Positions 23,793-39,184 of a DNA stretch of 39,184 nt are shown here, piece by piece (the first letter of the stretch is position 1; every line of letters starts with the position of its first letter). The notes under the pieces were generated by a model, which was not told where the DNA came from, did not search any database, and worked only from the letters and a program-made list of their open reading frames with translations. This DNA is from Paludibacteraceae bacterium (GTDB lineage Bacteria > Bacteroidota > Bacteroidia > Bacteroidales > Paludibacteraceae). The stretch covers positions 1 through 39,184 of the forward strand of contig JAKSKV010000030.1 of the NCBI GenBank assembly GCA_024401555.1, in the 5' to 3' direction. Both the position numbers and the translations under genes were made by a program.

Positions 23793-25604
23793 ATGGTTGA
23801 AACGAATATAAACATCGCTGACGAAAAGAACAGACAGGCGGGAGGAGGAAAGACAACCGCTGATAATTTCTCTTCGCAGGATGGTAGTGTAGTGATCGTG
23901 CAGGATGGAGAAGTCATTGACCTGTCAGTACCTGTTGTAACGGAAGAGAGAGACGGATTGGAGACATCGCTCGACAAGCGGTTGGCAGACCATTCGTACA
24001 ACAATATTATGATTTTGGAGCAGACATTCGAAACACCCGAAGAGGCTAGTGCCTTCCTGTGTTCGAAAGACCCTCAATACTACCCTGTCGCAGGTCAAAT
24101 GATGCAGTATTCCGACCGCAACGGAAACTTGCATTTGGTGCGGTTCAACGGCTCTTACATCATCGACCGCACAGGCAGGAAATCATCTTGGGGAGACATC
24201 GTGTTCGACAAAAGGAATAATTGCTACCTGTTGTTCGAAAAGGTTACGGCAAGTTCGTTGCGGTTCGCTCGTTGCTACAACTCGCCTTATTGGACTATCA
24301 ATAACCATTCAGCCTCCTATAAGTATTGGAGATTCATCGGAACGAATAATATCGGTTCGATTGTTATGACAGGGAACGATTCTAATGTTATGGCTCTCAC
24401 GAGAGACGGAGGAAATACATTCACGGAGATGCCAACGATGCGTAGCGGTTATCATTGGAGTATCAAGGAGGCAAGGAAATACCTTCAACCTTATGAGACA
24501 TTCATTGATGTTGTTACTAAAAGTTACTCTTTCTCTTCGAACACAACAAGTTGGATTGACCAATACATCTTCGATGCGAACGGAAATTTTCTAGGGCAAC
24601 AAAACCTACAAACGATTCCAAGCACAAGAACTATGGCAGGCGGAATCCGTATCGCAAAATTATGCGATGCGGAGTTTGTCCGCAACGATAATGGTAGTTA
24701 TAGTTTTTATGTCATTTTCCAAGATTTGCAGAACAACCGATATTTGACCGATTTGGAGAATCGTGTCTTGCGTATCGATGGAGGCTACAATGTAACATAC
24801 ACCGACAACGGAGAGTTATTAGTCTATCCGAACGAGGCTGACAGGGCGGGTGCGATGAACTCTTACCGCATCAGCACCGACTTTGAAATATTGGAGACCT
24901 ATCCGAATTGCCACTCTCTCGTCTATACCGACAAGGGTATCGTGGAAATTAGACACGATTCAATCAAGGTGGACGGAGTTGATGTGGAGATTCCTGTCCC
25001 GCTTGGTAATATGATGCTCACATCGGGTGCGTGGAACGGAAAGAACAATGTGATGGTAATCACAGGAACGCACGAAGATATTGACAACAAGGGCAATTAC
25101 GGATTCCTCATCGACCTAACAACGAAAAAGATTGTCAATACGGAGAAATGGGAGGAGATTCCTGTCATTCCCGATGGCATTGAGGGTTTGATTTCCGTTA
25201 AGGGCAACAAGATTTATGAGGCAAAATTCGGAGACAAGTTGCGTTATGAAAACGGCTCTCTCAATGTCGATTATAGCGACAGGATCGAAGAATATAAGAA
25301 CTACCGAATGACCGCATACGGCAACAAGGAACACTTTGAGTTGTGGTCTATCTCCGCAAGGCAATACCTTTTGGAAGGTCAGTTGGTCTATTCGGACGAA
25401 TCCTGCACCGAGGTTGCGGGAACCATCACACGAATCGGATCACTGAACAATCCGAACGATGTCTATGTGCAATTTGCGGGTTCGCAAAATATGGAACTAT
25501 ACCTCTTCCACGAATCCAAAGTGCCTAACACCATTGCGACAACAAAGGCTTTGATGGAGTTAAAGGACAAGTTGCAGGAATTAGAAAACAAAATCAATAA
25601 ATAA
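23793..25604 (+). CDS. Candidate receptor-binding spike with Asp-box
   Basis: 603 residues, the longest late protein. Residues 1-60 are low-complexity. The body is beta-rich with an Asp-box (LTRDGGNTF at 202-210), as in BNR/sialidase-type propellers, and many repeated strand-turn units. The end is a coiled coil (LMELKDKLQELENKI). First gene after the early/late boundary. The long beta body with a terminal coiled coil suits a trimeric or vertex spike that binds the host surface. AGGGKTT near residue 16 is not a credible P-loop. No enzymatic residues can be assigned. Confidence 0.75.
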   Translation: MVETNINIADEKNRQAGGGKTTADNFSSQDGSVVIVQDGEVIDLSVPVVTEERDGLETSLDKRLADHSYNNIMILEQTFETPEEASAFLCSKDPQYYPVAGQMMQYSDRNGNLHLVRFNGSYIIDRTGRKSSWGDIVFDKRNNCYLLFEKVTASSLRFARCYNSPYWTINNHSASYKYWRFIGTNNIGSIVMTGNDSNVMALTRDGGNTFTEMPTMRSGYHWSIKEARKYLQPYETFIDVVTKSYSFSSNTTSWIDQYIFDANGNFLGQQNLQTIPSTRTMAGGIRIAKLCDAEFVRNDNGSYSFYVIFQDLQNNRYLTDLENRVLRIDGGYNVTYTDNGELLVYPNEADRAGAMNSYRISTDFEILETYPNCHSLVYTDKGIVEIRHDSIKVDGVDVEIPVPLGNMMLTSGAWNGKNNVMVITGTHEDIDNKGNYGFLIDLTTKKIVNTEKWEEIPVIPDGIEGLISVKGNKIYEAKFGDKLRYENGSLNVDYSDRIEEYKNYRMTAYGNKEHFELWSISARQYLLEGQLVYSDESCTEVAGTITRIGSLNNPNDVYVQFAGSQNMELYLFHESKVPNTIATTKALMELKDKLQELENKINK

Positions 25605-25632
25605 CTAAAATCAAACAACAAACAAAACTATT

Positions 25633-26589
25633 ATGAGTGTTTCAAAAGCAATCAAACAGGTTCTTTCAATCGTAAAGCAGATGCGTGATGCGTTGCTCGG
25701 AAAGAAGGTTTACAAGAGTTTCAAAGTGACGAACATTAAGGTAACTGATGTGTTCGCACAAATCTTTCAATTACTTAACCCCGATAAGCCGTTCACATTG
25801 ACGGACTATAATGTTTTGGGGTATTTCCCCGACGAAACACATTTCAATGGTCTATGTATTGAAATTTGTATTCCTCCGCAACAATTCGACATTCTACCGC
25901 AAGGAGGAGTATTTCGTATTCCCGCTCCATTGCTTTTTATTTTTACCGATGGAAAAACAACAAAGATAGAAATAACCGATGATTACATTGCGTCTTTGAT
26001 TTCAGTTAAGGAATCTCCTTGGGAGTGGGCAGGTTCTAGTGAGTTGTTCTTCGGAGAAATCGACTTGACTGACGTAATAGCAGTCGCAGGGGAATTTGAA
26101 TACAAGCAATTACCCGACTATGTGTGCGAAATTGAGATTGTAGAAAGTGTCACAAGAGATAGTACAGGATATGCACCTAGATGTCAAGACGGAATCAAAC
26201 CTCAATTCTCATCCATTTTGGATAACAACAATAGAATCGGAAGGTCGGTAATGATTTTGGGAACCGATGGAGAAATCAAATTGGGTTCTCCTGTTTACAA
26301 CAACACAAGAGAAGAACAAGGTATAATCGTTCCTCGTTACGAATTGGAGATTGAACAGGGAGAATACGCAGTCGTTTTGGATGTGGTTGTCGATGATGTC
26401 CAAAAATTATACATTATGGCAGGAACTGATATGGACTATTACACCGAATGGGTAAAAAAGCACCAAATCTCATCTTGCGTATTCAGCGGAGCAGGACAAG
26501 CGACTTTGAGCAGATTCAGCGGTAGCAAAGGAATCTTGAATTTGGTAATCGGAATATTTGCACCACAAACCTCTCCTGCAAATGAGTAA
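25633..26589 (+). CDS. Beta-rich virion protein with N-terminal anchor helix
   Basis: 318 residues. An amphipathic helix (SVSKAIKQVLSIVKQMRDAL) precedes a mostly beta body. The N-terminal helix resembles that of the protein at 26816 (KIIKQGVDKIIDIL), so the two may dock to the same site. It is AT-richer than its neighbours and may be a variable host-range protein. Not recognised. Confidence 0.75.
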   Translation: MSVSKAIKQVLSIVKQMRDALLGKKVYKSFKVTNIKVTDVFAQIFQLLNPDKPFTLTDYNVLGYFPDETHFNGLCIEICIPPQQFDILPQGGVFRIPAPLLFIFTDGKTTKIEITDDYIASLISVKESPWEWAGSSELFFGEIDLTDVIAVAGEFEYKQLPDYVCEIEIVESVTRDSTGYAPRCQDGIKPQFSSILDNNNRIGRSVMILGTDGEIKLGSPVYNNTREEQGIIVPRYELEIEQGEYAVVLDVVVDDVQKLYIMAGTDMDYYTEWVKKHQISSCVFSGAGQATLSRFSGSKGILNLVIGIFAPQTSPANE

Positions 26590-26806
26590 CCTATTATCAC
26601 AACAAGACAAGCAAAAGCACTTTATCGTAGGTGCTTTGCTTGGCTTTGTTTCAATCCTACTTGCGATAGCGGGGGGATTGTATAAGGAAATCAAAGACAA
26701 GTCACAGGGCGGTAAGTTCGACCCGCAAGACCTACTCGCAACTATTTTGGGTGGTTTGGTCGGACAGGCGGTTTCGCTCATCATCTTTTTGTTAATCTTT
26801 TTATAA
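26582..26806 (+). CDS. Two-segment small membrane protein (YfiM-like short form)
   Basis: 74 residues from the ATG at 26582, overlapping the previous stop. Two hydrophobic segments (FIVGALLGFVSILLAIAGG and LGGLVGQAVSLIIFLLIFL) flank KEIKDKSQGGKFDPQDLLAT. I recall similar short proteins with DKQKHF and this loop in Bacteroides phages, annotated as YfiM/DUF2279-like. A holin or membrane-organising role is possible. Confidence 0.75.
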   Translation: MSNLLSQQDKQKHFIVGALLGFVSILLAIAGGLYKEIKDKSQGGKFDPQDLLATILGGLVGQAVSLIIFLLIFL

Positions 26807-26815
26807 TCATTCAGT

Positions 26816-27268
26816 ATGGCACTAGGTAAAGACACAAAAATTATCAAACAGGGAGTTGATAAAATCATTGACATTCTAGAAGGTGGCGGTAGCGGAGAAA
26901 TTGCAGAGGTAAAGAAAGTTATTTTTTGTGAGATTGGCGATAATGTACTAGAAGATACTGAACCAATCATACAGGAAGGTGTAAAGGTTTTCGTAGGAAA
27001 TGGTCGTTATCAATTTAATCGAAATGGATTGGAAGTAATTCTATTGACCGAAGATGATTATGTACACGAAAATCTAGATAATGTTGCGGGAATTGTCGAG
27101 GTTAGAGCAGGAGAATTTTCATCGAAAATTTTGAAAAACATCGGTATAACTATTACTTCTTTCGAAGGAGGTATGATGAAAATTCATTGTTTGAAAAGAT
27201 TAGAAGAAGGCAACCCCGATTCCGTTAATTTCGTAGTTGAGATTGAATGTGCTAGCAGAGTAGAATAA
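26816..27268 (+). CDS. Beta-rich virion-region protein with anchor helix
   Basis: 150 residues. The N-terminal amphipathic helix TKIIKQGVDKIIDILEGG resembles that of the 318-aa protein. A Gly linker and a beta domain (VKKVIFCEIG ... VNFVVEIECASR) follow. AT-rich like the 318-aa gene. Possibly a second spike or a vertex component. Not recognised. Confidence 0.72.
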   Translation: MALGKDTKIIKQGVDKIIDILEGGGSGEIAEVKKVIFCEIGDNVLEDTEPIIQEGVKVFVGNGRYQFNRNGLEVILLTEDDYVHENLDNVAGIVEVRAGEFSSKILKNIGITITSFEGGMMKIHCLKRLEEGNPDSVNFVVEIECASRVE

Positions 27269-27282
27269 TAATTAATAATATT

Positions 27283-27699
27283 ATGGTAAAAGTAGGAATG
27301 ACTTTGAGGCAATGCGTGGATCACGCCAACCTTATGCCCACAATGGGTACTTTGAAACAAGTGAGCGAGGCGAAGGCTCTTCGCTTTAAGTTTATCGACC
27401 GATTCTCCCCTGCGGAGATGGAGAGATTCGGAATCACGAAGGACGAACGGACAGGACGATATTTCGTGGACGATGCGAACGCACCGAAGGGTGTAGATGT
27501 GACTTTGGAGGACAACGAGGTAAAGTATTTCCAAAATTTCATCGACACATTGGATGCGTTAAAGATGGTGTCAATCGGAAATGTGGACCTCTACAACAAG
27601 GTTAAGGGTATCGTTGTCGAGGAAGAGGTAAAGGCAGATGCAGGTGCAGACGAAACACAACAACCCGCAGACGAGCCTGTTGTGAACGGATATGAATAG
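27283..27699 (+). CDS. Hypothetical 138-aa late protein
   Basis: 138 residues, mixed fold, with ALRFKFIDRFSPAEMERFGI and a disordered acidic, Gln/Pro-rich tail (GADETQQPADEPVVNGYE). No membrane segment. The next small gene overlaps its stop by 8 nt. Not recognised. Confidence 0.72.
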   Translation: MVKVGMTLRQCVDHANLMPTMGTLKQVSEAKALRFKFIDRFSPAEMERFGITKDERTGRYFVDDANAPKGVDVTLEDNEVKYFQNFIDTLDALKMVSIGNVDLYNKVKGIVVEEEVKADAGADETQQPADEPVVNGYE

Positions 27700-27862
27700 G
27701 AATATATTGAGAGGTTTTCTGCTCGGTTGTGCCTGTGTGGTGTTCAGTATAACTTACTGCATCATTCTAGCATCACAAGAGAGTAAAGATACGATCCCAA
27801 CACTATTCGCAGGTGTGATCGGGCAGGTTCTCTCATCCTGCATCATCTACTTTTTCGGATAG
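27692..27862 (+). CDS. Small two-segment membrane protein (56 aa)
   Basis: 56 residues, starting MNRNILRGFLLGCACVVFSI. A second hydrophobic stretch (FAGVIGQVLSSCIIYFFG) ends the protein. It overlaps the previous gene by 8 nt and its stop lies in the stem of the following terminator. Layout, overlap and hydrophobicity support a real gene. Confidence 0.65.
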   Translation: MNRNILRGFLLGCACVVFSITYCIILASQESKDTIPTLFAGVIGQVLSSCIIYFFG

Positions 27863-27887
27863 GGTTTCGTTACCCTATCCTTTTTTT
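27857..27887 (+). terminator. Terminator after the first late block
   Basis: GGATAGGGT (27857-27865) pairs with ACCCTATCC (27872-27880), followed by seven T. Confidence 0.85.
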
Positions 27888-27955
27888 GTTTTCAATACCC
27901 GCATTGAGAACACCAATAGAAATACTAACATTCACAATCTAAATTCGCAACGCAA

Positions 27956-28324
27956 ATGAAAAACATATACCCGATGAAACTATACAAGCGGATTTTCAAG
28001 GAGATACTCAAATCGGTAAGCGAAGAGGTAGAGGTCGCTCCCGAAGAACTGATCACTAGCAAGAACGAGGATTGCTTTTGTGCGAGGATGGCGATGTGTC
28101 ATTGCCTGTCGGAACACATCACGGACGGAGAGATAAGCAGACTGACAGGAATGTCGCAACAGGTTGTGAGCAGAAATAAGATACTCTACCCGCAAAGGCA
28201 ACGGCAAAGCACCACGATACGCATCATCACACGCATCATCAAAGAGACGATAGACACGCACATTACCGCCTACAAACAATCCACAAACATCACGCAAACG
28301 GAAGGATCGCACCCCACAACATAA
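27956..28324 (+). CDS. HTH protein resembling DnaA C-terminal domain
   Basis: 122 residues. The segment from DCFCARMAMCHCLSEHITDG through EISRLTGMSQQVVSR has the helix order of DnaA domain IV/TrpR-like HTH modules (a helix with aR-A, then IS-LTG-S-Q-V). The C-terminal third is Thr/Ile-rich. A second ATG at 27974 is possible. It sits alone between two terminators and may regulate late genes or bind the genome. The DnaA link is a pattern judgement only. Confidence 0.6.
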   Translation: MKNIYPMKLYKRIFKEILKSVSEEVEVAPEELITSKNEDCFCARMAMCHCLSEHITDGEISRLTGMSQQVVSRNKILYPQRQRQSTTIRIITRIIKETIDTHITAYKQSTNITQTEGSHPTT

Positions 28325-28353
28325 GCCTGTCGGCACAAATCGGGCAAGGATAG

Positions 28354-28397
28354 ATTCGCGTCAATCCCAATATCGGGAGAAACGCGAATTTTTTTTA
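28354..28397 (+). terminator. Terminator just before the 28401 start codon
   Basis: ATTCGCGT (28354-28361) pairs with ACGCGAAT (28382-28389), with an inner CCC/GGG, then eight T. The next ATG is only a few bases further on, so the hairpin may attenuate or insulate that gene. Confidence 0.8.
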
Positions 28398-28400
28398 TTT

Positions 28401-29006
28401 ATGGACAACGAGAAAGTTTTTTGTTTTCCCTATTCGGACAGGGGAAATGACCTTGCAACGATGATGGCTTGCAACGGAGGAATGAACGGATGGCAAAACA
28501 ACCCATTCATCTACCTTGTGTGGATGAGTATGATGAACGGAGGCGGGTTCGGTGGTTTCAACGGAGCGGAGAATTTCAACTCCCGACAAATCTCCGCTTT
28601 GCAGGACACCATCAACACCAACCACAACAACGATTTCATTATGGGTGCGGTAAAGGAGAACGAGTGTAGCCTTAAAAACCTGCAAAATTCGGTCACTTGC
28701 TCAACATCGCAAATCCAAGAGCGATTGACCAACATCGCCAACGGAATCCAACAGGGATTCTCATCGGTCGCTTACGAAAGTCAAAAGCAAACCTGCGACA
28801 TCATCAATGCGGGTAAGGAGAACACGCAACGCATCATCGACACTCTCAACGGACATTGGAACTTGCAATTGTCACAGGCTTTGCAAGATACCAAGGGCGA
28901 GTTGTCGCAAGAGAGACAAAGTGCCTACATCATCAGCAGGTTAAGTCCATTGTTCGCAACTGCGACTGCGACAACCGCAAATGCGACACCTGTTGCGGGT
29001 GCTTAA
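28401..29006 (+). CDS. Gly/Asn/Met-rich then coiled-coil phage structural protein
   Basis: 201 residues. A Gly/Met/Asn-rich first 60 residues (MNGGGFGGFNGAENFN) is followed by long helices with QTCDIINAGKENTQRIIDTL and a final SQERQSAYIISRLSP. This pattern is familiar from abundant but uncharacterised proteins near capsid genes in many gut phages (from memory). It probably is a virion or scaffold-like component. The hydrophobic stretch near residues 35-50 is short. Confidence 0.72.
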   Translation: MDNEKVFCFPYSDRGNDLATMMACNGGMNGWQNNPFIYLVWMSMMNGGGFGGFNGAENFNSRQISALQDTINTNHNNDFIMGAVKENECSLKNLQNSVTCSTSQIQERLTNIANGIQQGFSSVAYESQKQTCDIINAGKENTQRIIDTLNGHWNLQLSQALQDTKGELSQERQSAYIISRLSPLFATATATTANATPVAGA

Positions 29007-29021
29007 AATCGTTTTTTTTCG

Positions 29022-29048
29022 GGGGTGGCGAATCGCTACCCCTTTTTT
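29022..29048 (+). terminator. Terminator with 3-nt loop
   Basis: GGGGTGGCG (29022-29030), AAT, CGCTACCCC (29034-29042), then six T. Confidence 0.85.
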
Positions 29049-29079
29049 CATTAATCATTAACTAAAAACGAACTGAATT

Positions 29080-29535
29080 ATGTTATTCAAGGATTTGAAA
29101 GGCGGGTCTCCGCTTTATGTTTTGGACGCAAAGACGATAACCGCATCCGTTATCGAGGCTCAATCGGTGTCAAAGCCGTATTTCTCCGCAAACTTCGGTA
29201 TGCCGACAATGGTTGTGGACATCATCGCACAGGTGGATGGAAAACCACGAACCTACACATTCAAGCAGGACACCGATATGGGATTCGACAATGCCAACTA
29301 CCAAGTGATCGCAACCGACAGGGAAACTATTGTGCGAGAATTGGAGAATATGAAGGGTAAGAGCGAACAGGCTCTCAAACAGGTGGAGTTCCACGAGGCT
29401 ATCATCGAGCGGTGCAACGAGGAGTTGGAGAGATTCAAGACCGCACCCGCAACCGAACCCGAACCTGTTACCGCAATCGAGGAAAAACCGCAACCTAAAC
29501 AGGGATTCGGAGGCATCCGAATGTACGGATTCTAA
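29080..29535 (+). CDS. Hypothetical small virion-region protein
   Basis: 151 residues. A beta-rich N-terminal domain (DLKGGSPLYVLDAKTITASV) is followed by a coiled coil (ELENMKGKSEQALKQVEFHE) and a Pro/Glu-rich tail ending GFGGIRMYGF. I recall proteins of this shape in Bacteroides phages next to the Gly/Asn-rich protein, without known function. Its own terminator follows at once. Confidence 0.72.
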   Translation: MLFKDLKGGSPLYVLDAKTITASVIEAQSVSKPYFSANFGMPTMVVDIIAQVDGKPRTYTFKQDTDMGFDNANYQVIATDRETIVRELENMKGKSEQALKQVEFHEAIIERCNEELERFKTAPATEPEPVTAIEEKPQPKQGFGGIRMYGF

Positions 29536-29889: not shown

Positions 29890-30960
29890 ATGAAAAAAGG
29901 CACAAAAATAGGCTTGGCGGTAGGATTCATTGGAATCGGAGGTTTCCTCATTTGGAACACGATTTCAAGGGCGAAGAATTTCGCGAACAACCTCGTTGTC
30001 ACTCCTATGTGGTACGGCAAACCGAAGGATATGCAGGTATCTATGCAGGGAGTGAAATTGCCTTTGGCGGTTGATTTCGTGAATCGTAGCGATTTCAGTG
30101 TCAGTGTCCGTCTTAATTCGTTCGATGTTGTCAATTCAGCGGGTAAGGTTATCGCAAATAACACATCAGCGACCAATACAATAACCATTCCCGCTAACGG
30201 AACAGGAAGGATGCCTGTCGATGTTTGGATTCCGATAGCGACATTAGCGACAATCATCGTTTCAGCGGTTCAGTCTATCGCTAACGGAGACATCGAAATC
30301 ATCCAAAACAAGTGCAAGGAATTGGTGGACGGATGCACGATGAAATTCGGATTGACAATCAACAACATCGCAAATGTTGCGTTGAGTGTTGTTTTGGACG
30401 AGAAGGAAGAGATTCCTGTCGAGCAACCTGTCAGCGGTTTGGGTTTGGTCGCGAAAACTCAACGGAGAATCGGATCAATACAAGACTACATCGACCTCAT
30501 TCCGAGCGAGAGCAAGTTACTTCGCAACGATGATTACATACAAAGCAATGTATCGCCCGAAGAGACCGCATCGTTCATACGCAAGATGGCGATAAAATAC
30601 CGCAAGGACACCGAGCAACTAGCCTATGCGTTGGAGCGGAACACAATCGAAGAGACGGTGCAGGCTATCTTCGATTTCGTCTACTCGTACATCAAGTACG
30701 AAGAGGACGCACCCGACAGAGAACAGGTTCGGAGACCATTGCGTACACTTTATGAACAAAAGGGCGATTGCGACTGCTACGCAATGTTGATTGCGTCAAT
30801 TTGCGAGAACCTAGACCTCAATTACAAGTTGCGTATTGCCGAGTACAACAACCGAGGCTATTACCAACACATCTACTGCATTGTCGAGGGTTACACCTGC
30901 GACCCTGTGTTGGACACTTGTTTTGAGGAGAAGAGACCAACCAAGAAAAAAGATTTTTAA
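29890..30960 (+). CDS. Membrane protein with LEA-like and transglutaminase-like domains
   Basis: 356 residues. A membrane segment (about 6-22) is followed by a beta-sandwich region (about 45-170) reminiscent of LEA14/WHy domains. PVSGLG occurs at 180-185 with QRRI at 191-194. A transglutaminase-like domain (about 215-342) follows with C294 (KGDCDCYAML), H327 (YYQHIYCIVEG) and D338 (CDPVLD) as the likely triad. Such domains act as proteases, amidases or cross-linkers. In a virion membrane it could process or cross-link structural proteins or attack peptidoglycan during entry. The reaction is not known. Confidence 0.78.
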   Translation: MKKGTKIGLAVGFIGIGGFLIWNTISRAKNFANNLVVTPMWYGKPKDMQVSMQGVKLPLAVDFVNRSDFSVSVRLNSFDVVNSAGKVIANNTSATNTITIPANGTGRMPVDVWIPIATLATIIVSAVQSIANGDIEIIQNKCKELVDGCTMKFGLTINNIANVALSVVLDEKEEIPVEQPVSGLGLVAKTQRRIGSIQDYIDLIPSESKLLRNDDYIQSNVSPEETASFIRKMAIKYRKDTEQLAYALERNTIEETVQAIFDFVYSYIKYEEDAPDREQVRRPLRTLYEQKGDCDCYAMLIASICENLDLNYKLRIAEYNNRGYYQHIYCIVEGYTCDPVLDTCFEEKRPTKKKDF

Positions 30961-30964
30961 AGAT

Positions 30965-31246
30965 ATGGCAGGATTCGGACTACAATTTTTGGACGGAGTT
31001 GGGGATGCGTACAACCAACCTGTTTTCCGCACATACGATTACGAAAATAGCGGTATGGTGCGATTCACTGACGGAGGTCAGTACAACCACGGAGAGAACG
31101 CATATTACGGACAAACGCAGGATTGCCGATGCGACTACCGCAACGAGGATGATTCCGACAAGACGAGCGGATTGCTCAAAGCACTAATCATCTTCGGAAT
31201 CGGAATGGTGGCGGGTCAAGGATTGAGAAAACTTTTCAAGGACTAA
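30965..31246 (+). CDS. Tail-anchored protein with YYGQ motif
   Basis: 93 residues from the ATG at 30965. A soluble Tyr/Asn/Asp-rich region with QYNHGENAYYGQTQDC precedes a C-terminal membrane segment (about 70-86). The motif is shared with the protein at 2945-3307. The start is 4 nt after the previous stop. Function unknown; virion membrane protein by context. Confidence 0.78.
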   Translation: MAGFGLQFLDGVGDAYNQPVFRTYDYENSGMVRFTDGGQYNHGENAYYGQTQDCRCDYRNEDDSDKTSGLLKALIIFGIGMVAGQGLRKLFKD

Positions 31247-31942: not shown

Positions 31943-32341
31943 ATGAAAGTGAATTGGAAGAACACCGCTATGAAGTTGGCGGGTACTTTGACAGGCGTAG
32001 TGGTTGGCGGTGCTTTGAAGAAGGCACTCAACGAGAGTAACGCAGTTGAAGGATTGGCGGGTAACGCAAAGAACTACATCGTTCCGTCTTTGTTGGCGGC
32101 TGGCGGTGCGGTTGTCTCCGCAAGTGTGAACGATGATTTCATCAAGAACGCAGGATTCGGTATGACCGCAGTTGGCGGTGCGGGTATCGTGAACGAGTTG
32201 ATGGGCAAAGAGGTGATCACCCTTAACGGAGTTCGTGGTCTAGGCAGAATGCAACGCAGAATCCCTTCACAGGTCGCTACAAGAGGTGTCGGAACACTCT
32301 CTTTGGAGCCAGGTATGTCGGGCGTTCAAGGTTGTTTCTAA
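31943..32341 (+). CDS. Gly/Ala-rich multi-segment membrane protein
   Basis: 132 residues, with hydrophobic Gly/Ala-rich stretches at about 12-25, 45-62 and 70-85, then GVRGLG (96-101) and QRRI (104-107). It lies directly before the candidate capsid gene. Small hydrophobic Gly-rich proteins of this type are common membrane components of lipid-containing viruses. The GLG motif could be a processing site. Unknown family. Confidence 0.78.
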   Translation: MKVNWKNTAMKLAGTLTGVVVGGALKKALNESNAVEGLAGNAKNYIVPSLLAAGGAVVSASVNDDFIKNAGFGMTAVGGAGIVNELMGKEVITLNGVRGLGRMQRRIPSQVATRGVGTLSLEPGMSGVQGCF

Positions 32342-32387: not shown

Positions 32388-32984
32388 ATGGCAAATTCAG
32401 TATTCGCAGGTACATCTATGAGTACCGCAAGAGTGGAGTTTATGGAGCGTACCAACCTCGTTCCCGCAGAGGTCATCGCAGGTTTGAACAATATGTCTAA
32501 GAAATTGGCAGATTGGACGATCTACGGAACAAAGGTGATGGGTGGTGCTACCACAAAGGAGATGTTTGAGGCAAAGGACACAACTCGTGATTCAATCACT
32601 AACCTCAACAACGCAAAGTTGGAGGCAGGTCAGTATTTCCTTTTGGAGAAGATTCGCGTGTTGTCGGCACAAGTGGAAGCAGACACTGACGAGGCATTGG
32701 CATCGGCAGATTTCGACATCGCAAACTCGGCAATCCTTAACGGAGAGTTGGAGATCGAGGTCAGCGGTAAGACCGCATTGCCACGCACATCTTGCCGTGT
32801 GTTCGACAAGGTAGCGGAGGCAGGAGACGGACTTTGCGGTTGCTACAAGTTGGCTAACCCTGTTATGATCGCTCCTCAATCCCTCATCAATGCGACCATC
32901 CGCATCAATAGTGCGGTTGCATCGTCATTGGAGAAGGAGGCGGTTCGCATCGAGTTGATTGGTTGCAAGGTTATCCCTGCTTAA
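32388..32984 (+). CDS. Candidate major capsid protein (single jelly-roll-like)
   Basis: 198 residues. The first 75 residues are helical. From residue 80 on, alternating strands suggest a jelly roll: QYFLLEKIRVLSAQVE, ILNGELEIEVSG, CGCYKLANPVMIAPQ, LINATIRINSA, then AVRIELIGCKVIPA. The order 'position of strands, pro-rich turn, inducing strand, final IELxGxxxxP' resembles the C-terminal part of jelly-roll capsid proteins of tailless viruses. A terminator follows directly, as is common after highly expressed capsid genes. No signal or membrane segment. Structure prediction would decide; an abundant non-capsid virion protein is the alternative. Confidence 0.72.
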   Translation: MANSVFAGTSMSTARVEFMERTNLVPAEVIAGLNNMSKKLADWTIYGTKVMGGATTKEMFEAKDTTRDSITNLNNAKLEAGQYFLLEKIRVLSAQVEADTDEALASADFDIANSAILNGELEIEVSGKTALPRTSCRVFDKVAEAGDGLCGCYKLANPVMIAPQSLINATIRINSAVASSLEKEAVRIELIGCKVIPA

Positions 32985-33083: not shown

Positions 33084-33971
33084 ATGTTATTTTCAGTTCC
33101 AATCACAGGCAAGGAGACAATCGTAGATACCCCGCTTAATTGCAGGAGCATCCGTTCTTTCTATTTCCATAACAGGTACGGAAAGACTAGGATGTTCACG
33201 AGCGAGAGCGATATGGACGATAGTTTCCGTGGGTTCGTCACAATCACTATTGACGGACGGAGAATTTGCGACAATCTTTGGGTTTTGCCATTTATGGACT
33301 TTCCATCGGACAATATCGTGTCCGAACCGAAAGATTGGAGACGCATTGCGATTCCGTGCCTAAAAAACACTGAAATGTCCGAAATCAAGATAGAGACTAG
33401 GAACGATTCGAATTTGGACTTTGAGGTTGTGTTCGAATATTCCGATACTGAGGTCGAATCCGAACACTTCTACCACATAGAGAGTTATCCGTTTGGCGTT
33501 GCGAACGGAATGCCCGAAAAGGAAGATAAGCGACCATACTCGGTTAAGTTGGTTAATATCGGGAAAGAGTTCCAATTGCAAACACACGAAGAGGCGGAGA
33601 TGATTTTCGTGAACACGATGTTCCTCGACACGATTAGTTATATGAGACCTCCTTTCCCATTGCTCACGAAGGAAGGTTTCCGATTCGCCTATGCGACACT
33701 ATACTATAATTCGCACAGACAATACCCATCGACATACCCTTTTGCGGATTTTAGGCTTACCATTTCCGACCTCGGTGATGTTATGCCAAGCAAAATGCCG
33801 TTGGATTTGATTTCGGTGGACGGACGGAACTCTTGGAAGGACGCACTATACCGCCTTAACGGAGGGTTGTCCAAACACCCAAAATTCAAGTTGGACATAG
33901 ATGGCTCTTTGGGTCCCGACACTCCATCAACGATTGCGACAATATACCTTATCCACGATTGTAAATTTTAA
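33084..33971 (+). CDS. Beta-rich virion protein, second capsid or penton candidate
   Basis: 295 residues from the ATG at 33084 (a TTG at 33057 lies in the terminator and is rejected). Many strands, for example FRGFVTITIDGRRICDNL, FEVVFEYSDTEVES and FRFAYATLYYNSH. No membrane segment or enzyme motif. With the 198-aa protein it forms a small/large pair reminiscent of two-capsid-protein viruses, but that is inference. It lies before three small beta proteins. Confidence 0.75.
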   Translation: MLFSVPITGKETIVDTPLNCRSIRSFYFHNRYGKTRMFTSESDMDDSFRGFVTITIDGRRICDNLWVLPFMDFPSDNIVSEPKDWRRIAIPCLKNTEMSEIKIETRNDSNLDFEVVFEYSDTEVESEHFYHIESYPFGVANGMPEKEDKRPYSVKLVNIGKEFQLQTHEEAEMIFVNTMFLDTISYMRPPFPLLTKEGFRFAYATLYYNSHRQYPSTYPFADFRLTISDLGDVMPSKMPLDLISVDGRNSWKDALYRLNGGLSKHPKFKLDIDGSLGPDTPSTIATIYLIHDCKF

Positions 33972-33982: not shown

Positions 33983-34345
33983 ATGAATAGCAAGCAATAC
34001 CAACGAATCGACATCACAATCCCTAGCGGTGTGACACACTACAATGTGCAGGAGCAACTCCGTAGCGACTACAAGTATGCGACAGGACTTTTCTTTTTCT
34101 GCGACAAACCGCTCACAGGAGTGACCTGCGGAGTGAAGATTGACGGAAACGAAATCCTTCCAATCGGTAGCGAGTTGGATTTGTTCCGTTGGAATAACCA
34201 AATAAGCCGTAACGAGGCTCTTTGGGATTTTTCGGACGATAGAATCGAATCATCGCAAAAGACAATCGACATCCACTTCGACATTCCCGAAGGCGGTTAC
34301 TATGCCGATGTGAAATTGTCGCTTATGGTTTTGTTGAAGAACTAA
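33983..34345 (+). CDS. Small beta-sandwich protein, jelly-roll candidate
   Basis: 120 residues, nearly all strands: RIDITIPSGVTHYNV, GLFFFCDKPLTGV, GVKIDGNEILPIG, KTIDIHFDIPEGG, DVKLSLMVLLKN. The strand count fits a single jelly roll or other beta sandwich. It is 12 nt after the previous gene. Likely a minor capsid or vertex protein; no family recognised. Confidence 0.74.
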   Translation: MNSKQYQRIDITIPSGVTHYNVQEQLRSDYKYATGLFFFCDKPLTGVTCGVKIDGNEILPIGSELDLFRWNNQISRNEALWDFSDDRIESSQKTIDIHFDIPEGGYYADVKLSLMVLLKN

Positions 34346-34357: not shown

Positions 34358-34729
34358 ATGTTGAGGTTATATAAATTGAAAGTTCCCGCTCACAAATTGG
34401 GGAAATCGTTTAGATACGATTTCCCCATTGCGGGTAACGGAAATATGTTGGTCGGTGCTTTCGCAAGAATTAGAGGATTCGAATCGTGCTTTGCGAAATT
34501 GTCTATCTCGACCGATGGAAGGATTGTGGTTCCGTCAATAAAGGTAATGACTAAACCTTGGATTAGACCATCAGCGAACAATATGCTCGTTCCTGTCGAT
34601 TTCGAGAGGATGGGCAACAAAATCACATTCGTTGTCGAAGAGTTTGTAAATCCGTACATATTAGGCACGAAAGGAATCGTTGAGCAGGAGTACACGATTG
34701 ATGTTTACATTAAAAGCAAGGAGCAATGA
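34358..34729 (+). CDS. Small beta-rich virion-region protein
   Basis: 123 residues, beta-rich (KLSISTDGRIVVPSIKV, NKITFVVEEFVNPYI, EQEYTIDVYIKS) and basic. Its stop overlaps the next start (ATGA). Likely a minor capsid component together with its neighbours. Not recognised. Confidence 0.74.
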   Translation: MLRLYKLKVPAHKLGKSFRYDFPIAGNGNMLVGAFARIRGFESCFAKLSISTDGRIVVPSIKVMTKPWIRPSANNMLVPVDFERMGNKITFVVEEFVNPYILGTKGIVEQEYTIDVYIKSKEQ

Positions 34730-35127
34730 TTAAGACACTTATCGACATAGAGAAAAGGAGATACGCACAGGAAGGCTACGATACCATCGTGTCTAGCGAG
34801 GACATCAATGTTGTCGATACCGAGATGTGCGTCAATCTAGGCAATGACACCATTATCCTAACAGGCTTCGTATTTGACGATGACACCACCTGCGGAGAGG
34901 ACGAGAGAGTTACAATCGTCTCCCCTAGTGACGCAATCAGCGAGAACGCATCCAAGTTGGCGTCTTTCGGAAACGGAAGATACAAGGTTATGCGTGACTA
35001 TATGATTGTGAAGAGACTTAATTCGACAACGATCGAGTATTTGAAGAGAGGTGACGATGAGACGCAAGGAACACAATCGCCTTTGACAATCAGTTTCATC
35101 CGAATTTCCCCTGCGAAGAGAAAGTAA
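34726..35127 (+). CDS. Small virion-region protein
   Basis: 133 residues, with a helical N-terminus (KTLIDIEKRRYAQEGYDTIV) then strands ending LTISFIRISPAKRK. Coupled to the previous gene by overlap. Not recognised. Confidence 0.73.
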   Translation: MIKTLIDIEKRRYAQEGYDTIVSSEDINVVDTEMCVNLGNDTIILTGFVFDDDTTCGEDERVTIVSPSDAISENASKLASFGNGRYKVMRDYMIVKRLNSTTIEYLKRGDDETQGTQSPLTISFIRISPAKRK

Positions 35128-35151
35128 TTTATCAACCAAAATAGTAATAGT

Positions 35152-36117
35152 ATGAATAGAGAATTGGACATCACAAACCTTTTGGACAATGTGAGAACGA
35201 GTTTTGAGAACTGCACCTCAATCAACTACACTTTCGTCCTGTATGACCGCAAGATGGAGTTGAAAAACAAATTGCAGGGATCATCCACAACCGCGAACAA
35301 ACAGGAGAAAGCGGAACAGGTGCTTTCGGCACTAGAAAGTTACCTTCAAAGACACCCCGAAATAGCGAAGGTGGATGCCGATTTCGGTGGCAGGAAAGTG
35401 AGCCAACGCACCAACACAAGTTTCATCCTCCGCTCAAACGATGATGAGACAACCGAGGAACTTCGCAACCAATTGGACGAGATGAGCAACGAACTGAACA
35501 AGTTGCGTTCCGAGAACGATGCGAAGGCTAGCCATTTGGAGCAAAGGATGGAGGCTATCAAATCAAACAACGAGAAGAACGAGAAGGTGGACATCGAAAA
35601 CACCGACTACACCGCAATGATGGGCAACACCATCCAAATTTTGACAGGATTGGCGGGAATTCCCGATGATTGCGTTGATTCCAAAGGACAAATCACGCAA
35701 TTCGGATTGGGCAAGCTGATGGAACGCAAAATCAAGGAGGACATCGAGAAGAACAACCGCATCACGAAGATAGAGGCTCTTTCATCGGAGAACGAGCGAC
35801 TAAAATCGCAGATCGAGGAGATGCGTAAGGAATATCAACGGATGGAGGACGAGTTGGAGCAATACGAAGAGTATCAAAGGCAGACCGAGCCTCTATTGGA
35901 GGAATTGCAGAGCCTACGCACGAAATCGGGATTGATTTCAGCGGGATTGGGCAATGTTTTAGGCAATGTAGTTGGCTCACTCGCACAAAAATACAACCTA
36001 GGTGCTTTGTTGGGTGTGGACAACGCACAACAGGAGCAACCCGCACAACAACCACAACCGCAAACCGCACCGCAGGTTAGACCTCTTGTAAGAGCGGTGG
36101 ATGCGGACGAGGAATAA
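35152..36117 (+). CDS. Coiled-coil structural protein with hydrophobic Gly-rich segment
   Basis: 321 residues. Coiled coils at about 98-148 and 190-258 flank a conserved-looking region (YTAMMGNTIQILTGLAGIPD). A Gly/Leu-rich hydrophobic stretch (about 261-290) could insert in or lie on a membrane. The tail is Gln/Pro-rich and ends acidic. Probably a scaffold or tether between membrane and capsid. Not recognised. Confidence 0.76.
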   Translation: MNRELDITNLLDNVRTSFENCTSINYTFVLYDRKMELKNKLQGSSTTANKQEKAEQVLSALESYLQRHPEIAKVDADFGGRKVSQRTNTSFILRSNDDETTEELRNQLDEMSNELNKLRSENDAKASHLEQRMEAIKSNNEKNEKVDIENTDYTAMMGNTIQILTGLAGIPDDCVDSKGQITQFGLGKLMERKIKEDIEKNNRITKIEALSSENERLKSQIEEMRKEYQRMEDELEQYEEYQRQTEPLLEELQSLRTKSGLISAGLGNVLGNVVGSLAQKYNLGALLGVDNAQQEQPAQQPQPQTAPQVRPLVRAVDADEE

Positions 36118-36136
36118 CCAATAAAAGACTACTTCG

Positions 36137-36322
36137 ATGGCTAAATACGAAATAACAATCACAATCAACGCGAACGATGCCCGACAAGCACAGGAAATCG
36201 CAGACGCACTGCAATCGGCAAGCGACAAAGTGACAGGCGATGAACTATGCGGAATGATGCGGATTTTGGCAAAGAATCCGTCATACATCAAGATGGCAAA
36301 AGTCGCGTCAAAATTCGCTTAA
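36137..36322 (+). CDS. Small hypothetical protein (61 aa)
   Basis: 61 residues, strand then helices (YEITITINANDARQAQEIAD). It ends 3 nt before the next start. Resembles small phage proteins with an alpha/beta fold, but no family is clear. Confidence 0.7.
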   Translation: MAKYEITITINANDARQAQEIADALQSASDKVTGDELCGMMRILAKNPSYIKMAKVASKFA

Positions 36323-36325
36323 AAT

Positions 36326-36835
36326 ATGAGTGTAAAGACAAAGGCATTGAGCAAGGTCGCATCACTGAAAAAGAATCCCTACTTATTGGTGGCGACGATT
36401 TCGGTAACGGCAGGATTGGCTATCTTCGGCGGAATCAAGACCTACCGATTCATCAAGAGCAAATCCGCACAAAAGGATGCGGAGAAGGACAAGGCGAAAA
36501 TACAAGAACAGGCGAGAGAGCAGGTGTTGGAACGCAGGATAACCGATTCGGACGCAAAGGTTTACGCAAAAGACCTTTTGGACGCAATGGACGGATTCGG
36601 AACTGACGAGAGCAAGATCAAGGAGATCATCCTAGACAACAATCCGTCAGCCACCGATTTACAGGCAATCGTGGATGCGTTCGGAACACCCGAATACGGA
36701 ACATTCGGAAAGCCTATGTGGGGCAACGGAACACCTCTCAACCTAATCGAATGGATCAAGAAAGAGGTTGATACATCAACTAGCCTGTACGAATCGCTTA
36801 AAACGAAATTCCAAACATCGGGTTACACATTCTAA
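36326..36835 (+). CDS. Membrane-anchored annexin-repeat-like protein
   Basis: 169 residues. A membrane segment (about 19-37), then a charged coiled coil, then a domain with AKDLLDAMDGFGTDESKIKE and DLQAIVDAFG. The GFGTDE core (90-95) is the signature of the annexin repeat, whose loop binds calcium and phospholipid. Only one repeat is present, so the match is partial. A membrane-bound virion protein that senses or binds lipid is a speculative reading. Confidence 0.75.
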   Translation: MSVKTKALSKVASLKKNPYLLVATISVTAGLAIFGGIKTYRFIKSKSAQKDAEKDKAKIQEQAREQVLERRITDSDAKVYAKDLLDAMDGFGTDESKIKEIILDNNPSATDLQAIVDAFGTPEYGTFGKPMWGNGTPLNLIEWIKKEVDTSTSLYESLKTKFQTSGYTF

Positions 36836-37239: not shown

Positions 37240-37243
37240 GTTT

Positions 37244-37483: not shown

Positions 37484-37485
37484 TT

Positions 37486-37650: not shown

Positions 37651-37665
37651 CAAAAAGATACGATT

Positions 37666-39147
37666 ATGATAGAGTTACTAGCACCTGTCGCTCTAATGGC
37701 AAGCGGAGGTTATATGATTTACAAGTCAAGCGGAGAGGGAGACGGAAACAAGACCCCTAAAACAACCGCACCAAAGACCGAAGAGCCAAGTGGTCCATCG
37801 GCTTTGCAGAAATTGCAGATGGAGGCGGAATTGAACGCAAAGACACCTGTCACGAACAACAACTCATCGGCAATAGTCGATGATGCGAACGCAAGAGGCA
37901 GGGAAACCGCAACCAACGAGGGCAAGACATCTCAATCGACAAAGAGTGCTTTGTATTTCGGAGACAAGAACGGAGTGTATGATCAATTTTACGATTACAC
38001 GAAGGCGAATGGTGCTGACGAAAACCTGTTTGACGGAACACGATTGGTGGTAGATGCATCCGCACACGGACAATACTATCGTAGTCGCATCATTTCCCCA
38101 TTCTTCGCTGAAACTCAACCACTCGCTTGGAACTTGGGTAGCAAGGCTTATCAAGCATTCGGAGATTCGGATGTTGATAGAATGACATTCAAGAATAACG
38201 AAGTCTTGTTGGTTCGTTCCGCTTATCGTGGAGAATACAGGCAAATCGCCTTTGTTTTGGAGGTATTCAATCCTTTCAATAGGATTACACAATTGCAACA
38301 AATCATCATCCGAAATGTGAAAATTGCGGGTAAGGCTTGTCATATCGTCAATGATGGTGGATGGTGTCACGAAGGTTTGCAGGATGGAAATATGTCAATT
38401 ATGAATAAAATGTACACTATCGATTCCGATTCAACGGATAATTTGCACGGCACACTGCACGATGTTCCCGCACCGTTCATTTGGGAATGCGACATCGCTA
38501 TGCCAAAGAGAGGTTCGGTGTTGATCCCGATCTTCCTGCAAGTTGCGACAACAACACTATCTTCCGAGAACACGAAAGACCTATACACGCACTTTGACGA
38601 TACCGCCAAGGCTCGTTATATCCGTTACGAAGGAAAGAAGAGGTATGGAGAATCAAAATGGATTTCCCCTTCTAGTAACAAAATGTTGTGCTACCCTATA
38701 AGAGAGGATATGGATGAAGGTGTTATGAAGATTGTCTATAATGACCTATCAGCACCTCCATCATTAAAGGATGGGGATTTCTCCTGCGACATCACCCTTT
38801 CGAGCGGACAAAATTTCTCCGTGAACAAAACTAAACTTAACAACGGAGATTATGATATACACGCCTTGAATTGCTCCTTACCCGAACATCTTGCGTTGAT
38901 GCACTCTTATCGTGCGGGTTACGATTCAAACGATGCGTACCAAAAATCATTTATCGGAGATTACGAAGGTAGCATTCCGTATGTGATGAAGAGCGGTCAG
39001 TATTATGTGAGCGAGGCTTTGGGAGACTGCATTATGGGCATCACGAAGGGATTCCCATTGGAGACCGACTTCCCGAAGTTGCTCAACCAAAGTTATTCGA
39101 AGTATAGTTTCAAAAACGACTTCGCCCACAAGAACTATTGTTTTTAA
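37666..39147 (+). CDS. Membrane-anchored large ectodomain virion protein
   Basis: 493 residues. A short N-terminal hydrophobic segment (ELLAPVALMASGGYMIY), a disordered Ser/Thr/Asn linker (about 25-95), then a beta-rich ectodomain of about 400 residues. EVFNPFNRITQLQQIIIRNV resembles a LEA14-like strand set, as in the 356-aa protein. No catalytic motif. A vertex or spike-base protein anchored in a particle membrane is a reasonable reading. Followed after 18 nt by the origin-spanning gene. Confidence 0.76.
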   Translation: MIELLAPVALMASGGYMIYKSSGEGDGNKTPKTTAPKTEEPSGPSALQKLQMEAELNAKTPVTNNNSSAIVDDANARGRETATNEGKTSQSTKSALYFGDKNGVYDQFYDYTKANGADENLFDGTRLVVDASAHGQYYRSRIISPFFAETQPLAWNLGSKAYQAFGDSDVDRMTFKNNEVLLVRSAYRGEYRQIAFVLEVFNPFNRITQLQQIIIRNVKIAGKACHIVNDGGWCHEGLQDGNMSIMNKMYTIDSDSTDNLHGTLHDVPAPFIWECDIAMPKRGSVLIPIFLQVATTTLSSENTKDLYTHFDDTAKARYIRYEGKKRYGESKWISPSSNKMLCYPIREDMDEGVMKIVYNDLSAPPSLKDGDFSCDITLSSGQNFSVNKTKLNNGDYDIHALNCSLPEHLALMHSYRAGYDSNDAYQKSFIGDYEGSIPYVMKSGQYYVSEALGDCIMGITKGFPLETDFPKLLNQSYSKYSFKNDFAHKNYCF

Positions 39148-39165
39148 CGATTAAAAGATACGATT

Positions 39166-39184
39166 ATGTTAGGAGATTACGATT
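39166..39184 (+). CDS. 5' end of the origin-spanning tail-anchored protein
   Basis: ATG at 39166 gives MLGDYD and a split codon; with bases 1-2 it becomes TAT and the frame continues as YSNDVENKI and onward to the stop at 335. The combined length (354 nt) is a multiple of three with no stop. This start has the same AAAAGATACGATTATG context as the gene at 37666. Confidence 0.8.

Follow-up and report, generated by a model that had tools for sequence, protein, structure and literature searches.

Among the described viruses closest to the element analysed here, SPV1 (Portogloboviridae) is tailless with circular dsDNA, the Helvetiavirae carry a packaging ATPase, and FLiP has a circular ssDNA genome of about 9 kb. 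Simuloviridae have been described as temperate, tailless viruses with an internal membrane, extrachromosomal proviruses, genomes of 16–19 kb and two single jelly-roll shell proteins, while PhiCjT23 is reported to have a small circular ssDNA genome of 7642 nt. In PMC8812541 the single jelly-roll shell protein of SPV1 is reported to take the basal position in the Helvetiavirae branch, a packaging ATPase is given as a shared core gene of the Vinavirales (PMC9502842), and the FLiP and Odin groups are reported to be without one (PMC5894146).

The window, that is the whole 39,184-bp stretch of DNA analysed, very probably represents the entire circular genome of a temperate virus of a Bacteroidales bacterium, one with a jelly-roll capsid and no tail. 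Our best reading is that it belongs to a widespread group of tailless viruses of which the literature searched gives no description. This reading draws on genes and predicted structures, from which particle, lipid and packaged DNA are extrapolated, not seen. The SPV1 capsid protein is the best PDB match of the window's 198-aa protein, but SPV1 has an archaeal host as opposed to the bacterial one here. Chains of SH1 (Helvetiavirae) are among the ten best Foldseek matches of the same model; of the two single jelly-roll major capsid proteins typical of Helvetiavirae, however, the window has one confidently predicted single jelly roll, the 198-aa protein, and one probable single jelly roll, 33983–34345, and neither profiles nor Walker A motifs revealed the packaging ATPase of that group. 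FLiP and PhiCjT23 share with the window a Bacteroidota host, a membrane (suggested here by genes) and a double jelly-roll protein, the PhiCjT23 capsid ranking 21st among the Foldseek matches of the window's 295-aa model, but the small circular ssDNA genome typical of Finnlakeviridae contrasts with the closed contig found here. PRD1/PR772 P3 and PM2 P2 also match the 295-aa model, and lytic enzymes are likewise among the genes; the Vinavirales have a packaging ATPase, whereas none was recognised here, and the window adds an SPV1-like single jelly-roll protein. Of the Bamfordvirae traits, a double jelly roll is predicted for a protein that may or may not be the major one (33084–33971), profiles and Walker A motifs gave no packaging ATPase, and the Caudoviricetes (Duplodnaviria) traits TerL, portal and HK97 capsid were absent from the profile matches listed for 55 of the window's 56 ORFs.

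Genome form and early genes

The window forms a closed circle, since a 117-aa ORF runs across its joined ends (39166 over the end to 335), as ORFs also do in two syntenic relatives, contigs C81 and G324. Out of 178 mechanically called ORFs, 56 were picked by hand (34 late, 22 early), and Pfam, NCBIfam and PHROGs profiles were run on 55 of them, with 18538–18789 omitted. Three large genes lie on the minus strand: a RadA/Sak4-like ATPase recognised by its C-terminal domain (6146–7783; PF13479 E 1.9e-7; phrog_6891 ATPase E 2.7e-24; Sak4 E 1.2e-9), a strawberry-notch-type helicase (7802–11923; PF13871 E 4.5e-21, PF13872 E 2.3e-17; 8 of 26 context loci) and a DNA methyltransferase-like protein (11941–14550; phrog_6263 E 2.1e-6; Pfam Eco57I at 0.0078, below cut-off). 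The RadA-like family was found in five of the 26 context loci, a set that includes many short contigs, and in six of seven further loci.

The sequence-only reading had described a lysogenic element with an integrase and its own replication genes, and profile searches recovered these on the plus strand as a tyrosine integrase (15657–16652, presumed start; PF00589 E 3.7e-19), a DnaD-like replication protein (19526–20425; phrog_2514 E 2e-25) and a DnaC-like helicase loader with a Walker A motif (20416–21018; phrog_3277 E 8.4e-20). Each match was obtained for one of the 55 proteins and is attributed by us to the ORF named; the integrase and the DnaD-like protein have homologues in relatives. A search of the own genome with 801 bp around the start of the integrase gene gave no attB, the best second match having an E of 0.016. 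Tandem integrated copies are another possible source of a contig that closes on itself.

A conserved late block with many membrane proteins

Late genes had been proposed to run from 23793 over the end to 6009. They are indeed densely packed on the plus strand throughout that range, but the part that recurs in other Bacteroidota begins only at 29890 and continues over the contig end to about 3307. This block is syntenic in 26 context loci; three proteins at 23793–27268 have no match in these loci, and four at 27283–29535 have matches in one or two. Since the 198-aa family served as the seed in the search for the 26 loci, all of them have that gene by design; it also occurs, together with the transglutaminase-fold family, in all seven further loci.

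Membrane proteins are enriched in the late genes, although the 'about twenty' first counted was too high: a Kyte-Doolittle segment at a threshold of 1.6, under which a few more proteins that appear hydrophobic by eye fall, is carried by 14 of 34 late proteins as against 2 of 22 early ones, and 200 shuffles of the late proteins gave a mean of 5.1 and a maximum of 11. Judged by gene content only, the virion would have an internal membrane.

The block, which like all genes described in this section is on the plus strand, opens with a membrane-anchored transglutaminase-fold cysteine enzyme of 356 aa (29890–30960; PF01841 E 6.4e-6, above cut-off), present in 26 of 26 loci and with its Cys...His pattern in 23. 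Next come a small C-terminally anchored protein (30965–31246, start set by homologue length; 3 of 26 loci), an SH3-like tail-anchored protein (31253–31630; PF08239 E 0.0043, below cut-off; segment at residues 107–125; 11 of 26), a small membrane protein (31665–31916; residues 22–40; 19 of 26) and, directly ahead of the putative capsid gene, a protein that is hydrophobic by eye with no segment at 1.6 (31943–32341; 21 of 26). Downstream of the jelly-roll genes treated below are conserved proteins of 133 aa (34726–35127; 15 of 26), 321 aa with a coiled coil (35152–36117; coiled-coil Pfam matches below cut-off; 18 of 26) and 61 aa (36137–36322; 19 of 26), an N-anchored protein of 169 aa (36326–36835; weak annexin-like PF00191 E 6.2e-4, below cut-off; residues 19–37; 16 of 26) and a 493-aa protein confined to close relatives (37666–39147; 3 of 26). 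The last of these had been the first capsid candidate and was dropped: short-peptide scans and phages yielded no relatives.

Across the contig end lie the 117-aa membrane protein (39166–39184 then 1–335; residues 94–112) and a tail-anchored protein of uncertain start (265–711; residues 128–146), both with homologues in contig C12 of genome G014, and a 374-aa protein with two membrane segments (708–1832; residues 273–291 and 348–366; 3 of 26 loci). Wall enzymes had been expected among the late genes, and profile matches identified an N-anchored phage lysozyme (1813–2367; PF00959 E 1.1e-47; residues 11–29) and an M15 peptidase whose N-terminal hydrophobic stretch, seen by eye, falls under the threshold (5464–6009; PF08291 E 3.1e-11). 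The N-anchored DUF6549 protein between them (2360–2932; PF20186 E 1.6e-21; residues 6–24) may act as a spanin.

Predicted jelly-roll proteins

Jelly-roll candidates had also been suspected in the late region, and the predicted structures of both proteins folded agree. The 198-aa protein (32388–32984, plus strand) was modelled by AlphaFold2 with pLDDT 90.0 and pTM 0.85 as a single jelly roll. In Foldseek against the PDB its top match is SPV1 (6oj0_A, E 7.7e-4), followed by PBCV-1, SH1 and KHP30 entries; similarity to the SPV1 capsid protein is modest (TM 0.48/0.52), with 17% identity in the structural alignment, and the family profile gave no capsid match against PDB sequences. 'Protein spackle' matches in that profile search (E 0.014 and 0.03) were taken as chance. 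We propose on the strength of the model that this protein is the major capsid protein.

The 295-aa protein (33084–33971, plus strand; pLDDT 73.8, a medium confidence, and pTM 0.76; folded from a 10-row alignment, 14 sequences minus four distant rows) is predicted to be a double jelly roll: 42 PDB entries match it at E≤0.001, 37 of which are, by their titles, capsid or scaffold proteins of the double jelly-roll type, and it resembles those of PRD1, PM2 and PhiCjT23 with modest query TM of 0.35–0.48. We infer from the model a second capsid or vertex protein. The adjacent 120-aa protein (33983–34345, plus strand), whose family has matches in 26 of 26 loci, is probably a single jelly roll akin to the C-terminal half of 33084–33971 (hhalign 87.5% to that half, 29% to the N-terminal half), and the 123-aa protein that follows (34358–34729, plus strand; 9 of 26 loci) is a possible paralogue of it (hhalign 38% over 113 columns).

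These roles could also be exchanged, the double jelly roll forming the main shell of an aberrant Bamfordvirae-type virus and the 198-aa protein serving as penton or minor protein. The double jelly-roll matches are statistically the stronger (E 1e-5 versus 7.7e-4), and in PhiCjT23 the vertex protein is reported to be distinct from the double jelly-roll protein of the shell. Clear homologues of the 295-aa type, however, occur in only 9 of the 26 loci as against 26 for the 198-aa family, a comparison biased by the seeding, and in the tRNA-bounded proviruses described below a pair of small proteins (129 and 95 aa, or 113 and 91 aa) comes after the 190–195-aa protein and ahead of the coiled-coil one. 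We regard this exchange as possible, yet unlikely.

Less probable still is a more far-reaching idea, that a Bacteroidia virus lineage combines an SPV1-like single jelly roll with a double jelly roll whose halves are paralogous to the neighbouring single jelly-roll gene, and would thus be a living record, between Helvetiavirae and Bamfordvirae, of the duplication behind double jelly-roll capsids, with the RadA-type ATPase recruited as packaging motor. A single-domain profile did not match the 295-aa protein of the window itself; of its two matches in relatives, one was always weak.

Distribution and relatives

The lineage is not rare, as it was found in 3 of 300 genomes sampled from the family, 20 of 393 from the order, 43 of 395 from the class and 8 of 395 from the phylum, counts that all include the own genome, that were obtained with two different profiles and, for the phylum, that include four genomes already in the class count. 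The class is regarded as Bacteroidia on the ground that a Bacteroidales MAG is matched by a genome from the genus of the window. Up to five places of the family occur in one genome, and the own genome holds two different members, the window and C81. Two distant relatives are proviruses of 26.6 and 28.2 kb bounded by tRNA-derived direct repeats (44 and 21 bp, at tRNA genes); these are two of seven stretches, the other five having no tRNA-linked flanking repeat. The RadA-like ATPase is the one P-loop ATPase common to the window and both proviruses.

A homologous block is present in the cultured Persicobacter psychrovividus, where the 53,207-bp complete plasmid pPP10 (NZ_AP025302.1) carries block genes in the same order with the helicase and RadA-like ATPase, but has other replication genes and, unlike the window, ParA/ParB. 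Its capsid-like gene, annotated as a hypothetical protein, differs from a second copy by 26 synonymous and 0 nonsynonymous changes and is under purifying selection. The closing contigs of the window, C81 and G324, together with pPP10 as a complete plasmid, suggest a circular replicon that may be a phage-plasmid. A functional temperate virus would be consistent with the integration at tRNA repeats in two distant relatives, with the self-closing contigs and with the purifying selection seen in the capsid-like gene.

The database entry of pPP10 as a plasmid, its Rep, ParA and ParB genes, and the fact that jelly rolls also occur in cellular proteins (the glycoside hydrolase 8ah3 ranks 50th for the 295-aa model), might instead point to a plasmid or integrative element making a surface or compartment structure, or to a domesticated virus remnant. 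We consider such a non-viral origin very unlikely: none of the 55 proteins of the window that were scanned matched a relaxase or conjugation family in Pfam or NCBIfam at E≤0.001, pPP10 is typed as non-mobilizable, lysozyme, M15 peptidase and spanin-like genes adjoin the block, and several copies per genome, two of them tRNA-flanked cases, and purifying selection speak for a virus.

A search of 50,697 phage records yielded no homologue, and one of 120 relatives no convincing CRISPR spacer against 23793–39184; a CRISPR lead in G089 was discarded as lying without a repeat array. Flavobacterium columnare prophage fF4, considered as a described member, is reported to be a myovirus resembling transposable phages. 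Bacteroides phage BS-TP4, which shares the strawberry-notch helicase within a 5,391-aa protein and has weak integrase and helicase-loader matches, was likewise set aside; it has an annotated portal protein.

Tailed-phage hallmarks and packaging

At the profile level the initial claim that terminase, portal, HK97-type capsid, sheath and baseplate genes are missing was upheld among the Pfam, NCBIfam and PHROGs matches listed. None of these functions is among the 22 Pfam and 16 NCBIfam families that 55 of the 56 ORFs matched at E≤0.001; the best NCBIfam match was a gene-transfer-agent endolysin model (6e-43), taken to be the lysozyme. With PHROGs, no head or tail family was among the best 25 of 58 families matched by the 55 ORFs, and 30 of these proteins read singly gave no structural matches beyond weak ones to whisker, scaffold and tape-measure models (E 0.0034–0.085), belonging to 28401–29006 and the coiled-coil protein. 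In the tRNA-bounded G1353, Pfam gave no tailed-phage hallmark in the 24 of 39 ORFs scanned; one of its proteins, of 157 aa, matches 'head protein' and 'tape measure' PHROGs (3e-16, 1.1e-14) through a section to which endolysin profiles align as well. For G1331 the reading was by eye. The negative hallmark search and the predicted jelly-roll folds both support the tailless temperate virus proposed at the outset.

A simple Walker A scan of the window returned the RadA-like and DnaC-like P-loops and two chance-looking motifs, and therefore no candidate terminase ATPase; nor was a packaging ATPase recognised among profile matches. The 6146–7783 protein was rejected as one because its matches are of RadA/Sak4 type, which suggest recombination, so that a role in packaging is put forward conjecturally. 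The lack of a recognised packaging ATPase, and the co-occurrence of two different members (the window and C81) in one genome, might indicate a satellite packaged by a helper virus, but the element has genes for replication and lysis as well as capsid-like ones, and the FLiP and Odin groups are likewise reported without this ATPase, making such dependence highly improbable. A tailed phage with terminase, portal and HK97 capsid diverged beyond recognition is scarcely credible, for although most late proteins lack a family match and the coiled-coil protein has weak tape-measure matches, the matches listed include none of those three functions, the Walker A scan no terminase candidate, and the predicted folds are jelly rolls instead.

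Proposed life cycle and significance

For the tailless virus that we favour, we posit that the genome would persist as a circle, as a phage-plasmid, or integrate, as the integrase gene and tRNA-bounded relatives suggest. Upon induction the late block would build an icosahedral shell whose main component is the 198-aa jelly-roll protein; the 295-aa double jelly roll and the small jelly-roll proteins would occupy the vertices or supply a second shell protein, and many small anchored proteins would lie in a lipid layer beneath the shell. The anchored lysozyme, M15 peptidase and transglutaminase-fold enzyme would breach the cell wall when the virus enters and leaves. DNA loading would do without any recognisable packaging ATPase of the HerA/FtsK type and might involve the RadA/Sak4-like ATPase.

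One large gut prophage survey is described as keeping only contigs with tailed-phage hallmarks or with matches to Microviridae, Inoviridae or known double jelly-roll profiles (PMC12629997), so that at least that survey would miss viruses lacking all of these features. Persicobacter psychrovividus NBRC 101262 offers a cultured strain in which the virus reading can be tested. Such viruses would give the single jelly-roll side of the virus world representatives from bacteria, and how double jelly-roll capsids arose would become a question open to testing.

Predicted capsid folds

The proposed major capsid protein of the window, 198 aa long (32388-32984), was modelled confidently with AlphaFold2 from 29 sequences (pLDDT 90.0, pTM 0.85). 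A Foldseek search of this model against the PDB returned SPV1 first (E 7.7e-4, probability 1.00, TM 0.48/0.52), and, judging by their titles, nine of the top ten entries are viral capsids, namely those of SPV1, PBCV-1, a plant virus, SH1 and phage KHP30. Since SPV1 was the sole PDB match with E≤0.001, the capsid-fold likeness is suggestive rather than overwhelming. Against a viral structure library the model gave 31 matches at E≤0.001, many unnamed and of mixed kind: capsid proteins of giant and of small viruses are among them, and so is a tail spike. The neighbouring 295-aa protein (33084-33971), modelled from ten sequences as two beta domains (AlphaFold2; pLDDT 73.8, pTM 0.76), had 42 PDB matches at E≤0.001. 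Of these, 37 are double jelly-roll capsid or scaffold proteins by title, among them PRD1, PR772, PM2, PhiCjT23, PBCV-1, iridovirus and vaccinia D13, the last of which we take to have a double jelly-roll fold; the other five stand at ranks 27, 30, 34, 35 and 41.

Profile comparison of the adjacent 120-aa family (33983-34345) with the 295-aa family scored 87.5% for the C-half and 29% for the N-half, with 38% over 113 columns for the protein at 34358-34729, a faint 13% for the 198-aa family and at most 2.2% for six other late families; the two halves of the 295-aa protein did not detect each other (0.2%). A single-domain profile matched eight proteins (257-397 aa) from relatives at two places, one of each two always being weak (E >0.01), and did not match the window's own 295-aa protein. 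On these results, we regard a possible paralogy of the 120-aa-type and 295-aa domains as a moderately supported lead.

Conserved core and variable region

Core genes were counted as profile matches (E≤0.001, up to three rounds) in 26 context loci, several on short contigs. The plus-strand transglutaminase-fold protein (29890-30960), the 198-aa protein, on which the search for these loci was seeded, and the 120-aa protein were present in 26/26; next in frequency, on the same strand, were 31943-32341 (21/26), 36137-36322 and 31665-31916 (19/26 each), 35152-36117 (18/26), 36326-36835 (16/26) and 34726-35127 (15/26). The 295-aa profile matched 24/26 loci, with a clear full homologue in just nine, the others being 120-aa-type matches. 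On the minus strand, the strawberry-notch helicase (7802-11923) was found in 8/26 loci and the RadA-like ATPase (6146-7783) in 5/26. Seven further loci from the class and phylum matches all carry the transglutaminase-fold and 198-aa families, with the 120-aa family in four and the RadA-like ATPase in six at the threshold used.

Three proteins at 23793-27268 were matched in none of the 26 loci and four at 27283-29535 in one or two each, which marks 23793-29535 as a variable region upstream of the conserved block. Two proteins of this region that have no relatives, of 603 and 318 aa, may, at a guess, serve in host binding. The related contig G014:C12 encodes an 886-aa repeat-rich protein (L006:9978-12638).

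Membrane proteins and wall enzymes

ORF listing and translation bore out the late array of the sequence-only reading, showing it to be compact and on the plus strand. Kyte-Doolittle membrane segments occur in 14/34 late versus 2/22 early proteins, compared with means of 5.1 (maximum 11) and 2.1 (maximum 6), respectively, in 200 shuffles. The wall-active repertoire comprises a lysozyme (PF00959, E 1.1e-47) and a DUF6549 spanin-like protein, both with N-terminal anchors, and an M15 peptidase; the Cys...His motif of the transglutaminase-fold enzyme is kept in 23/26 loci by a simple pattern. A 121-aa protein (14560-14925, minus strand) contains the string NCEHFV, presumably an LRAT-type, lipid-acting motif, replaced by NCEDFA in the G014:C12 relative; a Pfam search at E≤0.1 gave nothing for it. 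If it is a lipid-modifying enzyme, it would fit a membrane virus.

Tailed-phage hallmarks and ATPases

The absence of terminase, portal, HK97, sheath and baseplate genes, on which the proposal of a tailless virus leaned, held at E≤0.001 against Pfam and NCBIfam for 55/56 window ORFs. The same ORFs gave no head or tail family among the 25 listed of 58 matched PHROGs families, and 30 window proteins searched singly gave head/tail-type matches that were weak at best. Matches to a simple Walker A pattern fell on the RadA/Sak4-like protein, the DnaC-like protein and two motifs that look like chance, the strawberry-notch helicase being a further NTPase. For the lack of a recognised packaging ATPase, PMC5894146 offers a precedent in the FLiP and Odin groups.

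Two distant, tRNA-bounded proviruses also encode a RadA-like ATPase, there joined in one protein with an ArdC-type part of anti-restriction and zincin character (L134:11174-13459, minus strand; L133:7560-9872, plus strand), as identified by Pfam and PHROGs in G1353 and by eye in G1331, which also encodes a second P-loop protein. The fusion hints that the protein might enter a new host along with the DNA. The strawberry-notch helicase shares 29% identity over 90% with gp3 (5,391 aa) of Bacteroides phage BS-TP4 (PQ571277.1), a phage in which a portal and a tail spike are annotated. An 83-bp repeat (7815-7897 and 12407-12489, 89% alike) gives the helicase C-terminus and the interior of a methyltransferase-like protein a shared stretch, about DLDRKRKLLILAKAKIKIA, and a shorter piece recurs at 12851-12872.

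Circular and integrated forms

The window spans one contig (39,184 bp) from end to end, out of the 159 that make up a 3.52-Mb genome. It has no terminal repeat, and joining its ends creates a 117-aa ORF (39166 across the junction to 335) whose post-junction part is homologous to a relative's protein. C81 (43,506 bp; L008-L010), a second, divergent group member in the same genome, closes via a 51-bp overlap built of a 12-bp repeat, with a 297-aa gene spanning the joined ends; two related elements share one population or cell. In the IMG/VR contig G324 (45,930 bp) a 118-aa gene crosses the joined ends, all residues but one lying on one side. No ORF was found across the joined ends of G014:C12 (46,702 bp), which lie between the homologues of 14560-14925 and of 15561-16652, two genes that are close together in the window save for one 124-aa ORF. 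Circular genomes are the best fit to these observations. Contigs that close in this way would also arise from tandem integrated copies.

Integration is indicated in relatives by direct repeats reaching a tRNA gene end in two of seven stretches tested. G1353 has a 44-bp repeat at 4455 (within tRNA-Met, 4424-4498) and 31075, delimiting 26.6 kb, and G1331 a 21-bp repeat at 3937 and 32123 (in tRNA-Pro, complement 32122-32199), delimiting 28.2 kb, with an integrase-family ORF adjoining the tRNA. Pfam matches in G1353 (24/39 listed ORFs) comprise an integrase, HTH regulator, M23 peptidase, ArdC/zincin, transglutaminase-like protein and weak annexin, and no tailed-phage hallmark; a 157-aa protein has partial head-protein and tape-measure PHROG matches, its best being an endolysin PHROG (25 of 27 families listed).

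A related block also lies beside Rep, ParA and ParB on pPP10, a circular 53,207-bp plasmid of a cultured Persicobacter psychrovividus strain, and a partial related copy on megaplasmid pPP1. By simple uncorrected counts, the two capsid genes differ at 26 synonymous and 0 nonsynonymous sites, and pN/pS is 0.02-0.19 in each of four further stretches. This synonymous excess indicates that the compared proteins are maintained by selection.

Distribution and placement

The late block and parts of the minus-strand block are syntenic with the two contigs that carry relatives of the 493-aa protein (37666-39147; tblastn, 56 chosen window ORFs). These two relatives, both divergent, were the yield of 61 genomes; one lies elsewhere in the source genome and the other in a different species of the genus. 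Profile matches to the 198-aa protein occurred in 3/300 genomes of the family sample, 20/393 of the order and, with a wider profile, 43/395 of the class and 8/395 of the phylum, each count including the source genome and the last two sets having five genomes in common; one genome (G731) holds five matches. Three IMG/VR records and, among 72,556 plasmid records, two P. psychrovividus replicons match the group. Searched by tblastn, the 198-aa protein, two distant homologues of it, the transglutaminase-fold protein and the 493-aa protein had no homologue in 50,697 phage records, the single match (18% coverage, E 0.9) not being counted.

In the model that we propose, the gene content, the predicted folds, the closing of contigs, the provirus ends of relatives and the action of selection are supported; particle, membrane, packaging and lysis are inferred. 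The element would exist as a temperate circle or provirus, its late genes would build a jelly-roll shell around a membrane rich in protein in which the wall enzymes would sit anchored, and its genome would be loaded, conjecturally, with the RadA-like ATPase.

Predicted folds place the group nearest to SPV1 and SH1 among single jelly-roll viruses and to PRD1, PM2 and PhiCjT23 among double jelly-roll ones, and it satisfies every tested feature of none of the families considered. The group is undescribed in the titles and abstract starts of the literature searched (compared: PMC7761591, PMC10645730, PMC12946183, PMC8812541, PMC5894146, PMC9502842, PMC9719478, PMC12629997, PMC11324519), which covered few subscription papers and no bioRxiv preprints, so that a description elsewhere is possible. 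We rate it as belonging among the tailless jelly-roll viruses, a known kind, within which it is possibly a new high-level lineage.
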